Shown here piece after piece: positions 6,331 through 63,375 of a stretch of DNA of 64,000 bases; positions within the stretch are counted from its first letter, which is position 1, and each line of letters begins with the position of its first letter. The notes below the pieces were generated by a model. That model made no database searches and had not been told where the DNA came from. It saw nothing but the letters and a program-made list of their open reading frames with translations. The DNA is from Streptomyces sp. S465 (GTDB taxonomy: Bacteria > Actinomycetota > Actinomycetes > Streptomycetales > Streptomycetaceae). The position numbers and the translations under genes were made by a program. The stretch spans positions 4,272,001 to 4,336,000 of the forward strand of contig NZ_CP114036.1 in the NCBI RefSeq assembly GCF_026898115.1, written 5' to 3'.

Positions 6331-6393
6331 CTGTCACTCTCAACGTCAGAGTGCTAACGCCAATGATTAGCACTCGGACCATGCGAGTGCAAG
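6331..6393 (-). promoter_or_regulatory. groEL2 promoter with two tandem CIRCE (HrcA) elements
   Basis: CIRCE is TTAGCACTC-N9-GAGTGCTAA. Element 1 spans 6331-6357 (left arm 6/9, right arm 9/9, spacer 9). Element 2 spans 6367-6393 (left arm 9/9, right arm 7/9, spacer 9). The gap between them is also 9 nt, so the two perfect inner arms form a further reversed palindrome. On the minus strand TTGCAC (6392-6387) and TAATCA (6369-6364) are 17 nt apart, a vegetative promoter that overlaps element 2. HrcA repression under normal temperature is inferred. Confidence 0.9.
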
Positions 6394-6575
6394 CGCCCGA
6401 AGGGCTCCATGGGGGGTGGCGGCCGGGTGACGGGTGGGCGCAAGCGCCCGAAGGGCTCCATGGGGGGTGGCGGCCGGGTGACGGGTGGGCGCAAGCGCCC
6501 GAAGGGCTCCATGGGGGGTGGCGGCCGGGTGACGGGTGGGCGCAAGCGCCCGAAGGGCTCCATGGGGGGTGGCGG
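6390..6575. repeat. 51-bp tandem repeat, about 3.65 copies
   Basis: Copies start at 6390, 6441, 6492 and 6543. The first three are identical and the fourth matches for 33 bp, then diverges. The unit is 17 codons long in every frame, so all frames read as periodic peptides. The array begins inside the right arm of CIRCE element 2 and inside the -35 box of groEL2. It lies between the groEL2 promoter and the csp terminator. No protein-coding signal supports the periodic frames. Confidence 0.95.
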
Positions 6576-30390: not shown

Positions 30391-30423
30391 GCGCGGTCGG
30401 CCGCCGCACCGCCGTACCAGGGC

Positions 30424-30852
30424 CTAGACCCACCCGCGCCCCGAACGTCCCCGCTTGGTCTCACCGCGCTGCTTCTTCTCACGCAGCCGCCGCTCGTTGA
30501 TGCCCCGGGGAATCCGGGTGGGGCGGCGCGGCTTGGGCGGTGGCGCGGTCGCCTCCGCGAGCAGTGATGCGAGCCTTACGGCGGCCGTCTCCCGGTTGCG
30601 CCACTGCGAACGGTGCTCGGCGGCCCGTACGGTCACCACCCCGTCCACCAGGCGGCCCGCCAGCCGCTCCAGCGCGCGCTCCTTCCACACGGGCGGCAGC
30701 GCCTCGGTGCGGGCGAGGTCGAAGCGCAGCTCGACCTGGCTGTCGCTGGTGTTGACGTGCTGTCCACCGGGCCCGGAGGAGCGCGAGAAACGCCACATCA
30801 ACTCGGCCTCGGGCAAGCAGACCGAACCTCGGATGACATAGGGCGCGGACAT
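30424..30852 (-). CDS. arfB: Alternative ribosome-rescue factor ArfB (peptidyl-tRNA hydrolase)
   Basis: A 142-residue class I release-factor-like protein that frees stalled ribosomes without a stop codon. The catalytic GGQ loop is in [14 protein letters not shown] (about 25-38). The basic tail that threads into the mRNA channel is present ([32 protein letters not shown]). The ATG at 30850-30852 gives [10 protein letters not shown] much longer open frame on this strand is antisense to terD and rejected. It diverges from terD. Confidence 0.93.
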
Positions 30853-31047
30853 GCCACCATGGTCGCGCGCCGACCCCGATGGCGTCATCTTCTTATCCGG
30901 TCCGGTCATCTCGTCGCACCAGGCCATCAGGGTTTGGCAAAGAAAGTAAAGGGAGCTGGAACCTGTCGGTGTGTTCGTGGCGTTGTGGAGGGTGACGACG
31001 GCTTCGCCCGTCGCCTCGGACCATCGAGACCACGAAAGGGACTCCCC

Positions 31048-31623
31048 ATGGCTGTAAGCCTGTCCAAGGGCGGCAACGTCTCGCTCACCAAGGAGGCACC
31101 GGGCCTGACCGCCGTCACGGTCGGCCTCGGCTGGGACGTCCGCACCACCACGGGCACCGACTTCGACCTCGACGCGAGCGCCATCGCCGTGAACGCCAAC
31201 GGCAAGGTCTACTCCGACCAGCACTTCGTGTTCTTCAACAACAAGTCCACGCCGGACCAGACCATCGTCCACACCGGTGACAACCTCACCGGCCAGGGCG
31301 AGGGCGACGACGAGCAGATCAACGTCAACCTGGCCGGTCTGCCGGCCGACGTGGAGAAGATCGTCTTCCCGGTCTCGATCTACGACGCCGAGTCCCGCAG
31401 CCAGAACTTCGGTCAGGTGCGGAACGCGTTCATCCGCATCGTCAACCAGGCCGGCGGTACCGAGATCGCCCGCTACGACCTGAGCGAGGACGCCGCCACC
31501 GAGACCGCCATGGTCTTCGGCGAGCTGTACCGCAACGGCGCCGAGTGGAAGTTCCGCGCCGTCGGCCAGGGCTACGCCTCCGGCCTGGTCGGCATCGCCC
31601 AGGACTTCGGCGTCAACGTCTAG
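31048..31623 (+). CDS. terD: TerD-family stress protein
   Basis: A 191-residue TerD protein of the tellurite/stress-response family, a calcium-binding beta-sandwich. Seen: [37 protein letters not shown] (acidic calcium site), [58 protein letters not shown] and a DFGVNV end. GAAAGGG precedes the ATG. Its last 22 bp (31602-31623) are repeated exactly at 35929-35950, so the 3' end is the integration site of the adjoining element; the coding sequence stays intact. Confidence 0.95.
31602..31623. repeat. attL-like 22-bp direct repeat (terD 3' end)
   Basis: GGACTTCGGCGTCAACGTCT plus AG; identical to 35929-35950. It codes the last six residues and stop of TerD. Confidence 0.9.
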
Positions 31624-31705
31624 AGTTGCCCTACTGACCTGCGAAAACCCGGGTTTAGGCAGTACTGAGTCAGCACAGAGCCAGCACGGTCCAACCTGGT
31701 CAGCA

Positions 31706-31740
31706 CGAAGACCCCCCAACTTTCCCTTGGGGGGTCTTCG
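31706..31740. terminator. Hairpin shared by terD and the integrase remnant
   Basis: Perfect 12-bp stem, 31706-31717 with 31729-31740, loop of 11 nt. It lies between convergent terD and the int remnant. A similar, less perfect hairpin follows the right att copy. Confidence 0.85.
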
Positions 31741-31762
31741 GCATGTGTGGGTCAGGGAGCGG

Positions 31763-31940
31763 CTAGGCGGCCTGTGCGACCTCTTCCCGACCGCTCGGGG
31801 CGCCTCCCTTGATGACCGTCATCTGTGGCCGCATGGCCGCTTCCATGGCCTTCCGGCCGCGCTCCCAGGACTCCGGGACCAGATGCCCGTAGGTGTCGGC
31901 GGTCACCTGGATGGACTTGTTCTCCATCAACCCGTTCCGC
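31763..31940 (-). pseudogene. Tyrosine recombinase (integrase), C-terminal remnant
   Basis: The minus strand reads about 58 residues: LMENKSIQVTADTYGHLVPE, then SWERGRKAMEAAM and an Ala/Glu tail to a TAG at 31765-31763. This is the end of an actinobacterial phage or plasmid integrase with the nucleophile Tyr in DTYGHL. The upstream catalytic Arg-His-Arg region is missing; the frame decays into AT-richer sequence before 31990. The gene is therefore cut to its last quarter and cannot be active. Confidence 0.85.
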
Positions 31941-31993
31941 GATCTTCTCTAATAAACAGCTTAGCTAGATGCCCAGAACAAGCAACCACGCTC

Positions 31994-33334
31994 TTATGCG
32001 ATGAGAGACGCAGGCGTGACTACTCGTGCGCGTTCGTAAAGCTCCCGTGCCGCATGGTTCTTAAGGTAAGGTCGAATACGAGAATGCATATTTGCGATAC
32101 TTCGGTCACACTGACCTGATTGCACTTGGGGGTAGATATCCACGACCTTTTCCCAAGTGGCGCATGCGGCTTCGAGGTGGCCAATCTCTAGTTGGCGCTC
32201 GGCGAGCATGGATAGGTAGCGCACCCGGTTTCGACGGAATGAGTGGTGGCGCAGCTTATCGGATTCCTCCAGTGCCACAATGGAGCCGCGAACGTCGCCC
32301 AGTTCGTATCGCACCTGACCAATATGGTACGTAAGCGATGAGGGATTATACGAACCGAACGTTTTCGACCGAGATTCAGCCTTTTCCATGGCAACCTCGG
32401 CCTCTTTAAGGTAACTAAGGGAATTCTTGCGTTCGCCAAGTTGCGCAGCGGCGTGCGCCTGTTGACCCGCGAGGAATGCGCGCATCCTCGGTCCCGCGTT
32501 GGGGGATGCAGCAGCAGCGGAATTCGCTAGCTTCATGGCTTCCCGGCCGTGGCCTAGGTCAACAGCTTGAACGCTCATTCCCCGCAGCGTGGTGCAATAG
32601 GTTAGGTGATCCTCTGAGGACCCGGCCAATTCCAAAGCCTTCAAATAGTACTGCTGCGCCAATCCGTGAACCCCCTCATCCACAGCCATGTATCCGGTGA
32701 GGTAACACAGATCTGACGCTGCCGACATCATCTCTTTACGGACCGCTTCCGTAGCATCGGCGCGGAGGTATGGAGTAACCGTATTGACTAGGAATGCAGC
32801 GGCCATGGGGCGTGCGTGTCGGCCACCGAACTGATCATCAAGCTCTGAGATCCGTTCGGTCATGGCCACGACCGTATGGACGTCAGGCATCCCGATGCGC
32901 TGCACTTTCCCTGTCTGAATGGCTTCCATCCGGCCTACAACGTCCGGCCAATTGGGCACAGTCAACGCGACAGAGAAGAGGCTCACGCCAAGGACACTGC
33001 GGCGCGAAGGGTCCATGTCCTGCCTCCCCAAGTCGATCAACGCCTCAACGGTACTCAGGCGTGCGTTCGACTCGTCGGCAGGCAGGGGGAACCCTGCCTC
33101 AGTGTGCGTGATCGGTCGGCCCAGCTTCCGGGCGAACGCCTCCAAGATCAGCGGTCGGGCAGCCTCTTTCGGCATGTGCCCCTTAAGCCACTGATGGGCG
33201 GACGGCTCCCGGTACTTCTGTGGCGTTCCGCGTTCGGTGCCAATGCGGTTGACCTCCTGGACGAGCTGCCGCAGTGTCCACCCGGTCTCTCGAAACAGCC
33301 GTTCCAGACCCTCGTTCCGCTCCCGCTCACTCAC
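31994..33334 (-). CDS. TPR-type transcriptional regulator
   Basis: A 446-residue protein. The N-terminus is a helix-turn-helix-like region (TGWTLRQLVQEVNRIGTERG; SAHQWLKGHMPKEAARPLIL, about 12-75). A hydrophobic stretch, RRSVLGVSLFSVALTVPNW, lies at about 112-130. The rest is TPR-like helical repeats (YYLKALELAGSSED; GREAMKLANSAAAASPNAG; LGERKNSLSYLKEAEVAME). This form is common in Streptomyces beside small genes of unknown role. GTG at 33332-33334 with GGGGAG upstream; frames further up lack conservation. Codon use is clearly less GC-biased than in neighbours. It diverges from the micro-gene operon and probably controls it. Confidence 0.75.
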   Translation of the reverse strand: MSERERNEGLERLFRETGWTLRQLVQEVNRIGTERGTPQKYREPSAHQWLKGHMPKEAARPLILEAFARKLGRPITHTEAGFPLPADESNARLSTVEALIDLGRQDMDPSRRSVLGVSLFSVALTVPNWPDVVGRMEAIQTGKVQRIGMPDVHTVVAMTERISELDDQFGGRHARPMAAAFLVNTVTPYLRADATEAVRKEMMSAASDLCYLTGYMAVDEGVHGLAQQYYLKALELAGSSEDHLTYCTTLRGMSVQAVDLGHGREAMKLANSAAAASPNAGPRMRAFLAGQQAHAAAQLGERKNSLSYLKEAEVAMEKAESRSKTFGSYNPSSLTYHIGQVRYELGDVRGSIVALEESDKLRHHSFRRNRVRYLSMLAERQLEIGHLEAACATWEKVVDIYPQVQSGQCDRSIANMHSRIRPYLKNHAARELYERARVVTPASLIA

Positions 33335-33499
33335 GACACGCTCAACTCCCCAGTAAAGCAGGCGCTTAAAGCTCTTAAAAACTGCCGCTCTTGCCACGGT
33401 ACCGCGATGCGTAGTGGAGCGGTTGCCTAGAGCGAGAAGGACCCCCGCAACCGTGCGACCGGTCCGGGGGAATGGCCAACGCTGCGAAGGAGCGTCAAC

Positions 33500-33781
33500 A
33501 TGAGAGAGCGTATCGCCCGATCCATGAGGCCGTGGCCGCGGAGGTTATTCCCCGCCACCGGTCGCCATCGGACAGTCGATACCTCAAGGTCCGCACCGGG
33601 TGCCGGTGCCGTGCCCGTACCCGCCCCGGCCTGCGTGCCTGTCTGTAACGCAGACACGCCCACGCTTCAGCTCCCGCGCATCGCGGCCGGAGAACGCTTC
33701 CCGATCGCTTGGGACACCGACCCCGTGCCGTTGTACGTCATCCGGCACGAGCGGCAGCAAGCCTTGGGGGTCTCGCGGTGA
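33500..33781 (+). CDS. Small hypothetical protein, first of a micro-gene operon
   Basis: A 93-residue protein beginning MRERIARSMRPWPRRLFP, basic at the start, with a Pro/Ala-rich middle (PAPACVPVCNADTP) and an end FPIAWDTDPVPLYVIRHERQ. A strong GAAGGAG lies 7 nt before the ATG, so it is expressed. Its TGA overlaps the GTG of the next gene (GTGA). No known domain. Confidence 0.65.
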   Translation: MRERIARSMRPWPRRLFPATGRHRTVDTSRSAPGAGAVPVPAPACVPVCNADTPTLQLPRIAAGERFPIAWDTDPVPLYVIRHERQQALGVSR

Positions 33782-33924
33782 GCGCGATCGAGCCTCCGGC
33801 CCAACCGCAGGAGGCACAGCAAGACGCGCCCAAGTCCCCGACTCAGCAGGAGTTGGACGAGCGTGCGGACGCCCTGCATCAGAGGATTGACAAGCACCTT
33901 GGGCGCGGAGGGCTGACCCGATGA
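33778..33924 (+). CDS. 48-residue hypothetical protein
   Basis: GTG start overlapping the previous stop by 4 nt. It reads as a Gln/Pro/Ala-rich head (EPPAQPQEAQQDAPKSPTQQ) and an amphipathic helix (ELDERADALHQRIDKHLGRGG). Its TGA overlaps the ATG of the next gene (ATGA). Coupling on both sides is the main evidence that it is real. Function unknown. Confidence 0.6.
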   Translation: MSAIEPPAQPQEAQQDAPKSPTQQELDERADALHQRIDKHLGRGGLTR

Positions 33925-34082
33925 CCTCATGTGCCACGTGCACCCGGCTGAAGCAGGAGAAGGCCAAGGCCATGGAAGCCGGTGACTACCGGCTTGCCGC
34001 TGATTGCGAACTGAAGATCCGGCACCATCCGGACGGTCACACGATGCCTCCGTTCGGACCTCGATGGGGGTGGATCGGATGA
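33921..34082 (+). CDS. 53-residue hypothetical protein with CxxC
   Basis: Starts MTSCATCTRLKQEKAKAMEA; the CATC motif and a later Cys could bind a metal. The end is RHHPDGHTMPPFGPRWGWIG. ATGA overlaps link it to both the gene before and the gene after. Function unknown. Confidence 0.6.
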   Translation: MTSCATCTRLKQEKAKAMEAGDYRLAADCELKIRHHPDGHTMPPFGPRWGWIG

Positions 34083-34324
34083 AAGAGCCGAGCCCGTACA
34101 AGGGGCCCCAGCCGGGCGAGGAGGCTTACGACACCGCCACGGGGCGCCTGGGCGTTCTTCAAGCCGTCTGTGACGTCGATGAACTCATCTTCGATCACCA
34201 GATGCCGGGCCCACTCGTCGCGTTCCTCCGCCCCCAGAGGGGCGGACAGGAGTGGATGACTGACTCCAGGAACGTCCAGTTCCCCAATGAGGCACGGGCG
34301 CATCCCGATTCCGGCGGCGAGTAG
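34079..34324 (+). CDS. 81-residue hypothetical protein
   Basis: Starts MKEPSPYKGPQPGEEAYDTATGR-like (first 20 residues shown in part) and contains GVLQAVCDVDELIFDHQMPG and LVAFLRPQRGGQEWMTDSRN. It looks like a compact beta-rich protein. The ATG overlaps the preceding stop by 4 nt. Fourth gene of the coupled series. Function unknown. Confidence 0.6.
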   Translation: MKEPSPYKGPQPGEEAYDTATGRLGVLQAVCDVDELIFDHQMPGPLVAFLRPQRGGQEWMTDSRNVQFPNEARAHPDSGGE

Positions 34325-34481
34325 CCCTGACGCATCCCATGACTCCACCCGCCGGACGGTGTTGATTCCCGCCTGGTGGGTGGGTGAACCCCCGCCCCGA
34401 TCGTTCGCAACAGGAAGGGCTGGCGGTCGGGGCGGGTCAGCAAGTGCCGTGCACCACTCCAACCAGGGAGGGATTACACCA

Positions 34482-34927
34482 ATGACAGCAGTAGTGAACG
34501 ACCAGCGGACCGGCCGCTCACTGGTCAGCGAAGAGTTATTCGGCAGCCTCGCCCACTTCGTGGCCACCCACAACGCGCAGACCCCGGAGCGGGCCGAGCG
34601 CATCGCCGACCAGGCGGTCGCGTTCCTCGCGACCGTGGCCACCGCCACCGTGCCCATGGTCCCGTCGGACGACGTGGACATGGGTCTGCACGCCTTCATC
34701 CTGCACACCAAGGCGTACGGGGAGTTCTGCGACCAGCACGCCGGGCGCTTCCTGCACCACAACCCGGCCCCCGGTGGTGCGGGCGCACCCTGGAAGCCAT
34801 CACAGCCGGCGCGCACGCCATGAAGGCAGCGGGCTTCATGGTCTTCGATGACCTGTGGACCGTGAACGGCGAGAACGCCGCGCAGTGCGATTCCGACTGC
34901 GGACGACCGTACGGACAGGCGGAGTAA
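34482..34927 (+). pseudogene. Glycine-rich-domain (COG4278-like) protein, frameshifted
   Basis: GGGAGGG precedes ATG 34482. The frame runs RSLVSEELFGSLAHFVATHN, then MGLHAFILHTKAYGEFCDQH and GRFLHHNPAP, then ends early at 34823. The missing family-like end (EAITAGAHAMKAAGFMVFDD, LWTVNGENAAQCDSDCG) is present in another frame up to a TAA at 34925-34927. One lost C near 34780-34786 (GCGGGCGC for GCGGGCCGC) would explain it. Programmed -1 slippage or a sequencing error are alternatives. Codon 34536-34538 is TTA. Confidence 0.7.
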
Positions 34928-35009
34928 TCTCCGGCCGGTGATGTGAGACAGGGCCGCCCCTCGGCACATGCTGAGGGGCGGTTCGCTCCTCTGGAGAGGA
35001 TCAGAATTC

Positions 35010-35864
35010 GTGGCCGAAGCAGCGTCGTACGAGATCCCCACCCACGTCTTAGAGACGCTGGTGGCTTCAGGAAGGCGGCTCGTACTCGACCGGCGCGGGT
35101 CAACTGTTTGGGAGGTCGAGACGCAGCAGGGCCGGTATGCCGTGAAGCTCGGCTACCCAATCAAAGCAACAAGCGAATGGGAGGCTCAGGAATGGACGGC
35201 CCTGGCCCCCGCCCGCGAGGGCGCGATCTTGCAGCAGCTCAACAGGGGCAACGTCAGCTACGGCGAATGGGAACACGGAACCTGGAACATCCAGCCCTGG
35301 CACCAGGGCGCCAGCCTGTACGACCTGTGGCAGCCACACCGCGCCGAAGGGGCCTCATCAGAGCCCGACCTAGGCGAAGCACTGTCGTGCGCGGAAGCCG
35401 TAGCCGCATTGCACGCCACGGGGTGGGCACACGGGGACGTCCAACCCGCACACCTGATCATCAGCGATGAGGGAACAGCGCTCATTGATCTCGCGCTGGC
35501 CCATGGCGGAGACATCCCCATCGCGTATGACTTCAACTATCGGGGCTGTCTCGTCCACTACGAGAGCCCGGAGATCTCCCGGAGCGTGCTGGAGACCGGC
35601 ACGGCCACCCCGACCATGACAGCGGACGTCTACGCCCTTGGCGCCTCACTCTTCATCAGCGCGACCGGACTGCGCCACGTCGCGTACCCGGACGACGCCA
35701 GCCGCAAGGATCAGCGGCAAGCCATCGTGGACGGACCGCACCGCCCGGTGAACGTGGCCGGAGTGCTCGGCAAGCTCATCGAAGCCATGCTCAGCCCCGA
35801 TCCGGCCGACCGGCCAACGAGTGCCGAAGTCTGTAAGGAACTGAGCAGCGGGTGGAGCATGTAG
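35010..35864 (+). CDS. Atypical protein kinase-like protein
   Basis: A 284-residue kinase-fold protein. Ala-Val-Lys lysine in GRYAVKLGYP (about 41-50); catalytic loop WAHGDVQPAHLIISDEGTAL, where HGD replaces HRD and no Asn follows at the usual place; the DFG site reads IDLALAHGG, so the metal-binding motif is altered; then the APE-like YESPEISRS and the late helix ADVYALGASLF and PADRPTSAEV. GTG 35010 has GGAGAGG 10 nt upstream. TTA codon at 35049-35051. It may be a weak kinase or a pseudokinase. Related proteins sit in small Streptomyces islands; no target is known to me. Confidence 0.7.
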   Translation: MAEAASYEIPTHVLETLVASGRRLVLDRRGSTVWEVETQQGRYAVKLGYPIKATSEWEAQEWTALAPAREGAILQQLNRGNVSYGEWEHGTWNIQPWHQGASLYDLWQPHRAEGASSEPDLGEALSCAEAVAALHATGWAHGDVQPAHLIISDEGTALIDLALAHGGDIPIAYDFNYRGCLVHYESPEISRSVLETGTATPTMTADVYALGASLFISATGLRHVAYPDDASRKDQRQAIVDGPHRPVNVAGVLGKLIEAMLSPDPADRPTSAEVCKELSSGWSM

Positions 35865-35928
35865 GCTCTGACCTGCCAGTTTGGCAAGGACTAGCAGGGG
35901 TGCTACGGAGCCCGCGCATGTACGGTAT

Positions 35929-35950
35929 GGACTTCGGCGTCAACGTCTAG
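35929..35950. repeat. attR-like 22-bp direct repeat
   Basis: Identical to 31602-31623. Sequence to the right (35951-36012) resembles the original downstream region of terD. Confidence 0.9.
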
Positions 35951-37143
<1,193 letters not shown>

Positions 37144-37207
37144 TCAGGCAGCCTTCCGGGACGCCGGCGAGACCCCAGTAATACAGGCATGCCCTCAACG
37201 CTATGGC

Positions 37208-62251: not shown

Positions 62252-63375
62252 GCCGCACCCGCCACGATCGCGACGGCGTTGACGCCGCCGAAGCCGAAGC
62301 CGTTGACCTGGGCCACCCGGACCGGTGCGGTGAGCGGACGGTCACTGACCAGCCGCAGCCCCTCGCCCTCGGGCAGCGGCTCGGTGAGGTTGGCGATCGG
62401 CGGTATCCGGCCGCTCTCGACCGACCGGAGCGCCACGATCAGGCTCATCAGCCCGGCGGAGCCGGAGGTGTGCCCGGTCAGTGCCTTGATCCCGGTGAAG
62501 GCGGGGGAGGCGCCCTTGAACACCTCGGCCACCGCCTCCGCCTCGGTGCGGTCGTTGAGCGGCGTTCCGGTGGCGTGCAGCACCACCAGGTCGATGTCCT
62601 CGGGGCGGCTGCCCGCCGCCCGCTGGGCCTGTTCGATGGAGGCCCGCACCCCGTCCGCGTCGGGCGCGGTCTGGTGGTAGGCGTCGCAGTTGACCGCGAC
62701 CGAGCGCAGCCAGCCGCGGACCGGACGCCCGGCCGCCGGCTCGCGGCGCAGCACGATCGCCGCGGCGCCCTCGCCGAGGATGGTCCCCTGCCGGTCCCGG
62801 TCGAAGGGGCGCACCTGCGGCGGCGGGTCGAACTGCACCCGGTCGGCGAGGCCGAACATGGACTCGGTCACCGTGTCGCAGCCGGCCACGATCACCGTGT
62901 CGGTCTCGCCCTGTGCCAGCAGGTCCCAGCCGAGCGCCAGCGCGTAGAGCGAGGCGGAGCAGGCACCGGCGAAGGTGTGGGTGTCGTACGCGCCGAAGCG
63001 GCGGCGCAGCGCGGGCCCGAAGTCGAGGCCGTCCGCGGTGAAGGGGACGCCGTCGCGCCACCACAGCTCCAGCGAGCGCAGCTCCCGCAGCCCGGTGCCG
63101 ACCAGCACCGGGACCCCGCCGAGGTCGTCGGGGAGCCCGGCGTCCGCGGCGGCCTGGCGCACCGCCTCCATCAGGAAGCGGGTGGCGCGGCCGGGTTCGT
63201 CGCCGTCGCCGGTGCGGTCGTCGATCTCGAAGAGCTGCCGTGCGGTGAACCGCCGCTCGTCGAAGCCGCGCAGCGGCCCGATGCCGCTGCGGCCCTCGCA
63301 CAGGGACGCGAAGATCTCGTCGGGGTCGTCGCCGATGCTGGCGATGGCGCCGATACCGGTGATCGGGAAGCTCAT
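62248..63375 (-). CDS. Beta-ketoacyl-ACP synthase (KAS II type, active)
   Basis: A 375-residue ketosynthase with the full triad: Cys139 in THTFAGACSASLYAL, His267 in LHATGTPLND and His302 in LTGHTSGSAG. Also FDRDRQGTILGEGAAAIVLR and GFGFGGVNAVAIV. It elongates ACP-bound chains with malonyl-ACP. Overlaps the genes on both sides by 4 nt. Sequence is closer to KS of highly reducing type II systems (ishigamide-type) than to housekeeping FabF, as judged by eye. Confidence 0.9.
   Translation of the reverse strand: MSFPITGIGAIASIGDDPDEIFASLCEGRSGIGPLRGFDERRFTARQLFEIDDRTGDGDEPGRATRFLMEAVRQAAADAGLPDDLGGVPVLVGTGLRELRSLELWWRDGVPFTADGLDFGPALRRRFGAYDTHTFAGACSASLYALALGWDLLAQGETDTVIVAGCDTVTESMFGLADRVQFDPPPQVRPFDRDRQGTILGEGAAAIVLRREPAAGRPVRGWLRSVAVNCDAYHQTAPDADGVRASIEQAQRAAGSRPEDIDLVVLHATGTPLNDRTEAEAVAEVFKGASPAFTGIKALTGHTSGSAGLMSLIVALRSVESGRIPPIANLTEPLPEGEGLRLVSDRPLTAPVRVAQVNGFGFGGVNAVAIVAGAA

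Follow-up and report, generated by a model that had tools for sequence, protein, structure and literature searches.

A segment at the 3′ end of terD in Streptomyces sp. S465, probably a deletion derivative of a satellite-type element

Overview

The stretch of DNA analysed here, referred to as the window, is 64,000 nucleotides of Streptomyces sp. S465 (contig NZ_CP114036.1, positions 4,272,001 to 4,336,000). Within the window, a segment bounded by exact direct repeats lies at the 3′ end of terD, a gene of the tellurium-resistance type. We conclude that this segment is probably the immobile remainder, after internal deletion, of a satellite-type element of about 11 kb that was integrated at the terD 3′ end by a tyrosine integrase. 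The best evidence for the deletion is the presence in the window of both arms known from the 11-kb elements of other genomes, and a Streptomyces albireticuli element with an analogous internal deletion supports the same reading.

The insertion at terD

The 22-bp direct repeat GGACTTCGGCGTCAACGTCTAG occurs in exact copies at 31602–31623 and 35929–35950, with a repeat-to-repeat spacing of 4,327 bp. As a first-pass annotation made from the letters had claimed, the left copy is formed by the last codons of terD, so that a direct repeat completes the target gene. These are the only exact matches in the 9.66-Mb genome. Near-matches occur at two more genomic places, with two and three mismatches, and the one with two mismatches lies at the end of a terD-type gene that has a second such gene next to it. 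Among the repeats of the 64-kb window whose copies are more than 1.3 kb apart, this is the longest exact direct repeat.

In another genome of the same species in our sample (G360), terD and the same 22 bp are followed directly by the sequence found at window position 35951. The window's flanks, when joined, match this empty site with 138/144 identities. Since the TerD protein is identical at the empty site, the window segment is an insertion that has left terD whole. Two expectations of the first-pass annotation, a preserved TerD protein (191 amino acids, intact) and a relative in which terD joins directly to the sequence at 35,951, thus hold. Its third, an integrase C-terminus just inside the left repeat, is confirmed at 31763–31948 on the minus strand. 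This remnant is 79% identical to the integrase of Streptomyces eurocidicus in an alignment and 87% identical over 52 residues by tblastn, and it contains the stretch ADTYGHL, whose tyrosine we take to be the catalytic residue of tyrosine integrases. There is no intact integrase gene beside the attachment (att) site in the window.

A hidden tRNA integration site was considered and is ruled out: ARAGORN found no tRNA or transfer-messenger RNA in the window, and there is no Rfam match at the gathering threshold in 30400–37200.

Relatives at the terD 3′ end

The end of terD plus the left arm (401 bases) served as the query against 392 Streptomyces genomes, from which the best matches were listed. 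Among the matches listed, those of five genomes extend beyond query position 200: the window's own genome (G000), S. eurocidicus ATCC 27428 (G303), Streptomyces specialis (G121), G330, and G372, a genome of another species whose match spans just the part of the query inside the element. The matches of G247, G243, G360, and G351, also among those listed, extend barely beyond the terD stop; G247 shows a trace of an integrase tail, 18 residues long.

Intact integrases beside the 3′ end of terD, which the first-pass annotation proposed to look for, are present in S. eurocidicus (430 amino acids) and S. specialis (411 amino acids). The two genes are convergent with terD, and their products are 73% identical. 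The genomic match of the S. specialis integrase, which starts upstream, contains one TGA; the 411-residue frame itself is open. With the S. eurocidicus integrase as the query, the 392 genomes gave 32 matches in 29 genomes at E-values up to 1e-70, and terD lay in the fetched flank at 2 of the 30 integrase loci examined, these same two. The first-pass description of a terD site as uncommon stands for the target itself, with two full-length integrases beside terD in 392 genomes, whereas protein-coding sites are generally not rare. In Choufa et al. 2022, the insertion sites in 11 Streptomyces strains comprise 36 tRNA, 14 protein-coding, and 1 intergenic sites, that is, 14 of 51 are protein-coding (PMC9513070).

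Five terD elements have both ends: those of the window (4,327 bp), S. eurocidicus (11,205 bp), S. specialis (11,129 bp), S. albireticuli (3,674 bp), and G330 (7,191 bp). Their cores are 20–22 bp. The left arm motif, CTGACCTG plus repeated TCAGCAC words, is seen, with substitutions, in all five, and the words of the inner left arm are probably arm sites for integrase or excisionase, judging by their sequence. The relatives bear repeats, contrary to the possibility that they carry the same DNA without them; the lone exception, G372, has a damaged left arm and a damaged integrase tail. In S. albireticuli (locus L047), integrase residues 363–430 are joined directly to residues 267–537 of a primase-like protein. 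In S. eurocidicus and S. albireticuli, the terD stop is TAA at the left junction and TGA at the right, from which we infer that the crossover precedes the stop, so that terD would receive its stop codon from the element.

The suggestion that the right repeat belongs to a decayed terD paralogue is ruled out, as the inner side of this copy is an att arm recognisable despite substitutions in 5/5 two-ended terD elements. The G330 element (L040), 7.2 kb with exact 22-bp repeats, carries a radical-SAM gene and a DDE transposase gene; an integrase was looked for in it and not found.

The sequence GGACTTCGGCGTSAACGTCTAR occurs in 26/392 genomes, at 29 places. Among the 28 places examined, 12 are terD genes adjoining an upstream arfB-like gene, and 8 of these 12 have no element-like sequence after the stop. 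A TAG or TAA terD stop as a mark of past invasion is therefore unsupported.

Gene content of the 11-kb elements

The two intact terD elements, of S. eurocidicus and S. specialis, were called for open reading frames (ORFs), with ORFs shorter than 45 amino acids or of poor codon bias skipped; family scans against PHROGs and Pfam covered 12 of the 14 called ORFs in each, the S. specialis integrase in Pfam only. Both integrases match PF00589. A scaffold-like protein precedes the capsid protein, as a called ORF in S. eurocidicus and by similarity in S. specialis (54% over 106 residues). The major capsid protein matches phrog_267 (E-values of 4.5e-42 and 1.2e-40 in S. eurocidicus and S. specialis, respectively) and, for S. 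eurocidicus, PDB entry 8e16 (1.7e-20). Both elements further encode an Lsr2-like DNA-binding protein, an XRE-type regulator, and a DUF3987/primase-like protein (phrog_3022 in both; PF13148, E-value 1.1e-15, in S. eurocidicus), and an excisionase-like stretch is seen in S. eurocidicus (82% over 50 residues). The ORFs scanned in the two elements have no match to families of portal, large terminase, protease, tail, or conjugation proteins. An integrase, a replication gene, and a structural or packaging gene within about 10–15 kb, with no full phage set, make up the gene set expected of a satellite; the intact relatives have it and the window copy does not.

A capsid-marked family in Streptomyces

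The capsid search matched 27 of the 392 Streptomyces genomes at E-values up to 1e-20. A clade of 14 loci in 13 genomes stands at 71–100% identity, and the remaining matches drop to 28–33%. When 391 genomes from the order, representing 10 genera, were searched with a profile (E-values up to 1e-60), six matched, all of them in the window's genus, and five loci were added. At the resulting 19 loci, tblastn to a distance of 9 kb from the capsid gene finds genes that are scaffold-like at 18, primase-like at 17, Lsr2-like at 17, excisionase-like at 14, of a DUF5753-type regulator at 12, and small-terminase-like at 7. Family members match phrog_4708 (scaffold, E-value 1.5e-5), phrog_66 (excisionase, 1.7e-5), and HTH_17 (3.2e-10).

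The 19 loci occupy several kinds of site. Two are at terD and six at an acyl-CoA dehydrogenase gene; six have a tRNA-Leu-type integrase and three a large serine recombinase. At the acyl-CoA dehydrogenase sites, where the gene family was confirmed in one locus of the six, a right-hand copy of the gene's last 36 bp is present at four, with 3–6 mismatches, and two are assigned by position. The tRNA and both repeat copies are found at 5/6 tRNA-Leu sites, and L176 is placed there by its right-hand core and integrase type alone. The serine recombinase matches PF00239 (E-value 2e-19) in one locus, and the other two are assigned by similarity. Of the remaining two loci, L098 is cut by a contig end and L105 has just scaffold and capsid genes recognised. 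Element spacings are 10.9–11.4 kb at tRNA-Leu and 10.6–11.6 kb at acyl-CoA dehydrogenase. Two family capsid copies lie at separate places in one genome in two cases, L105/L108 (G090) and L175/L176 (G455).

A search of IMG/VR with 13 capsid queries found two viral contigs with capsid genes and scaffold-, Lsr2-, and primase-like genes, where a one-sequence query had found none; such DNA has therefore been flagged as viral before.

Could the elements instead be what is left of a full temperate phage, with the intact relatives being cut-down prophages whose capsid and integrase survived decay? Capsid, scaffold, and integrase are indeed phage proteins, and prophages are presumably the source of the capsid genes that match at 28–33% identity elsewhere in Streptomyces. 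Against this, the capsid clade is tight, at 71–79% identity to the query, and the same backbone of 10.6–11.6 kb recurs at several kinds of site, which would not be expected from independent decay. The ratio of nonsynonymous to synonymous differences (pN/pS) of the capsid gene is 0.29 between S. eurocidicus and S. specialis, meaning that the capsid was kept working, and no capsid or integrase match in 50,697 phage records reaches 60% identity. We consider a full-phage origin improbable.

Inheritance of the insertion and selection on its cargo

G372 has the same short gene set at terD without the right repeat. Its integrase tail is damaged, with the tyrosine of ADTYGHL reading cysteine. The window and G372 have neighbouring genes in common, and their identity is 85.8% over 3,876 bp of the element and 85.0% over 3,416 bp of the flank. 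These values fit an old insertion inherited by both strains; if so, G360 has lost the element cleanly. The integrase breakpoints of the window and G372 are near each other and not identical, so that a single deletion common to both is not proven.

The short form might alternatively be an independent cargo element, devoid of capsid genes from the start, that is spread in trans alongside satellites using the same att sites. The occurrence of the same short set in G372 and the preservation of both att arms in the window would suit such an element; the equal divergence of element and flanks in the same neighbourhood, however, fits inheritance and not transfer, and we give this alternative little credence.

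In comparison with G372, the kinase-like ORF of the window has a pN/pS of 0.22 (bootstrap 0.13–0.37) at a synonymous difference of 0.20, which is like that of two flanking genes (0.24 each, with ratios of 0.49 and 0.39). The regulator gene has the same ratio of 0.22 (0.18–0.27) at a synonymous difference of 0.52, which may point to its replacement by recombination. The small ORFs span 0.27 to 0.70. Regulator and kinase appear to have been kept by selection after the mobile functions were lost; such selection could also predate the immobilisation.

Points that weigh against a satellite origin

Several observations count against deriving the window segment from a satellite. Capsid, scaffold, terminase, and replication genes are all missing from the segment itself, and what ties it to the capsid family is an integrase tail, two arms, and one cargo ORF. 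The elements have no known particle or helper phage and are not known to be induced. The Pfam capsid model places the S. eurocidicus protein just under the cut-off (25.7 versus 27 bits) and the S. specialis protein just over it, NCBIfam has no match for the S. eurocidicus capsid or primase-like protein, and the AlphaFold model of the capsid has a mean pLDDT (predicted local distance difference test score) of 32. A small terminase is recognised in neither intact terD element, nor an excisionase in that of S. specialis. The small-terminase label is itself shaky: two of five members pass the cut-off of Pfam Terminase_7 (PF25673; E-values of 5.5e-8 and 3.6e-7) and the other three do not, and PHROGs labels one of these members "minor tail protein". 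Finally, that portal, large terminase, and tail genes are missing was judged from PHROGs and Pfam scans of 12 of 14 called ORFs in each of two elements and elsewhere from inspection of gene clusters.

A proposed way of life

With these points in mind, the phage-satellite life of the intact relatives remains the most likely one, as judged from their genes. Core, arms, and empty site are observed, and entry would occur by tyrosine-integrase recombination between the 20–22 bp core and the terD 3′ end, with terD receiving an equivalent 3′-terminal stretch and stop codon from the element. The satellite would then lie dormant beside terD until induced by a helper phage, be excised by integrase and excisionase, and replicate by means of its own primase-like protein. 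Its head would be built or remodelled with the satellite's own shell and scaffold proteins, while portal, large terminase, and tail would be borrowed from the helper. In the window copy, most of the integrase gene and everything through the replication genes would have been deleted, with both att sites and the cargo kept. Because its integrase is mostly gone, the window element cannot excise alone; its two att sites are preserved, and movement would at most be possible with an integrase supplied in trans.

We lean towards a broader proposal, that the 19 loci and their relics belong to an undescribed family of Streptomyces satellites that encode a scaffold, a shell protein, their own primase, and sometimes a small terminase, and that would take portal, large terminase, and tail from a helper. 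Such elements would swap integration modules (terD, acyl-CoA dehydrogenase, tRNA-Leu, serine recombinase), and their relics would leave a regulator and a kinase selected by the host.

Relation to known elements

A precedent exists for a satellite with a capsid-protein homologue. The cos-type Staphylococcus aureus pathogenicity islands (SaPIs) with Ccm, such as SaPIbov5, are likewise small integrated satellites, and their phage capsid homologue redirects head assembly; Ccm makes up the pentamers of a capsid of reduced size and cannot form capsids alone (PMC8569155). Unlike SaPIbov5, the present elements reside in another host phylum, their capsid gene is accompanied by a scaffold-like gene, and no helper counterpart is known. 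Capsid-forming phage-inducible chromosomal islands (cf-PICIs) are also integrated and make their own major capsid protein, the rest coming from a helper. However, they are credited with portal, head-tail connectors, protease, and both terminase subunits (PMC10690885). Of these additional genes, the Streptomyces family shows a small-terminase-like gene alone, at 7/19 loci, and the full head and packaging set of cf-PICIs is not found in the 12 of 14 called ORFs scanned in each intact terD element.

MulchRoom and MiniFlayer are Streptomyces satellites with capsid and scaffold genes, and MulchRoom has a tyrosine integrase. They differ in encoding small and large terminase, portal, and adapter, with no recognisable primase (PMC10690885). 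The terD-type elements are set apart by that description: they include a primase-like gene, and neither a large terminase nor a portal was recognised in them.

Like AICEs (actinomycete integrative and conjugative elements) such as pSAM2 (PMC3218068 and PMC9513070), the present elements insert by a tyrosine integrase at the 3′ ends of Streptomyces genes; they differ in that no transfer gene is found here and that the intact relatives have a phage capsid. Ghinet et al. 2011 report that AICEs with tyrosine recombinases in the vast majority use a tRNA 3′ end (PMC3218068). That the window holds a remnant of an AICE, a kind of small integrated element that is common in Streptomyces, is very improbable: the tyrosine integrase, the excisionase-like gene, and the presence of relatives of the window regulator gene on Streptomyces plasmids (14/16 plasmid records matched) would fit, but neither an FtsK/TraB-type translocase nor a RepSA-type or other Rep protein was matched by any ORF scanned in the intact terD elements or the window, and the relatives carry a phage capsid instead.

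Among the papers listed in our literature searches, none treats terD as an integration site or satellites with this gene make-up, judging by titles, hit counts, and the beginnings of abstracts. Insertion at the 3′ end of a protein-coding gene is a known kind of event; the surprise lies in the nature of the relatives. With terD and the acyl-CoA dehydrogenase gene, two genes join the 3′-end integration sites seen in Streptomyces, and the two full-length tyrosine integrases, whose terD site is delimited by repeats and arms, might be used as integration tools. Antibiotic producers would harbour a satellite-type family whose recognised set of head genes is smaller than that of cf-PICIs or of MulchRoom and MiniFlayer, and the question of whether a satellite can live on a scaffold and a shell protein alone becomes testable in named type strains.

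Features of the window element and minor observations

Table 1. Features at the terD locus of the window.
Feature	Position	Strand	Evidence or remark
terD, target gene, intact, 191 amino acids	31048..31623	+	PF02342, E-value 6e-86; protein 100% identical at the G360 empty site
attL core, 22 bp, terD last codons and stop	31602..31623	+	exact repeat; cores of 20–22 bp in four other terD elements
inner left att arm, repeated TCAGCAC-type words	31624..31707	.	recognisable by eye in S. eurocidicus, S. albireticuli, S. specialis, and G330
terminator-like inverted repeat between converging terD and integrase remnant	31708..31738	.	from sequence; putative function
tyrosine integrase C-terminal remnant, about 375 N-terminal residues gone	31763..31948	-	resembles S. 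eurocidicus integrase
NsdA-family tetratricopeptide repeat (TPR) regulator	31994..33397	-	NCBIfam NF053720, E-value 5.4e-133; phrog_10886, 4.9e-69; pN/pS 0.22 versus G372
small ORF, 93 amino acids, common with G372	33500..33781	+	69% identity; pN/pS 0.58
doubtful small ORF, 71 amino acids, overlaps the 93-residue ORF in another frame	33709..33924	+	72% identity to G372
small ORF, 53 amino acids, common with G372	33921..34082	+	87% identity
small ORF, 81 amino acids, common with G372	34079..34324	+	85% identity
cargo ORF, 113 amino acids	34482..34823	+	similar to L039 (44%), L103 (33%), and L047 (35%)
protein-kinase-like cargo ORF, 298 amino acids	34968..35864	+	PF00069, E-value 9.3e-9; pN/pS 0.22 versus G372
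inner right att arm, words like CTCTGACC, GTTTGG, GGGGTGCTA	35866..35928	.	by eye in 5/5 terD elements with both ends; putative function
attR core, 22 bp	35929..35950	+	exact repeat; single copy at the G360 empty site

The look-alikes of the 113-residue cargo ORF lie at two capsid-encoding loci, L039 and L103, and at the S. albireticuli relic locus, L047. The four small ORFs (93, 71, 53, and 81 residues) have no match in the family scans; for the 71-residue ORF, pN/pS is 0.70 with an interval that takes in 1. The region of the regulator gene resembles gene 1 (annotation: DNA binding protein) of the Streptomyces phage Ponzi at 68.5% DNA identity over 20% of the element. The kinase-like ORF gives weak PADLOC matches to phage-defence kinases, e.g., PD-T4-6 and MAD6, and it may perhaps serve in defence or sensing.

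The host terminator behind the element (35984–36013) and the matching flank of G360 (L041) resemble the element's own left terminator. The G360 flank scores up to 67 against the left arms of the elements, and two of 22 control flanks score alike (L034, 66; L027, 55). The host terminator is possibly the scar of an older insertion; a terminator form common in Streptomyces would explain the similarity as well.

Elsewhere in the window, a tandem array with a 51-bp period occupies 6389–6575 (136-bp exact self-overlap), and an exact 23-bp direct repeat occurs at 62671 and 63885, 1,214 bp apart.

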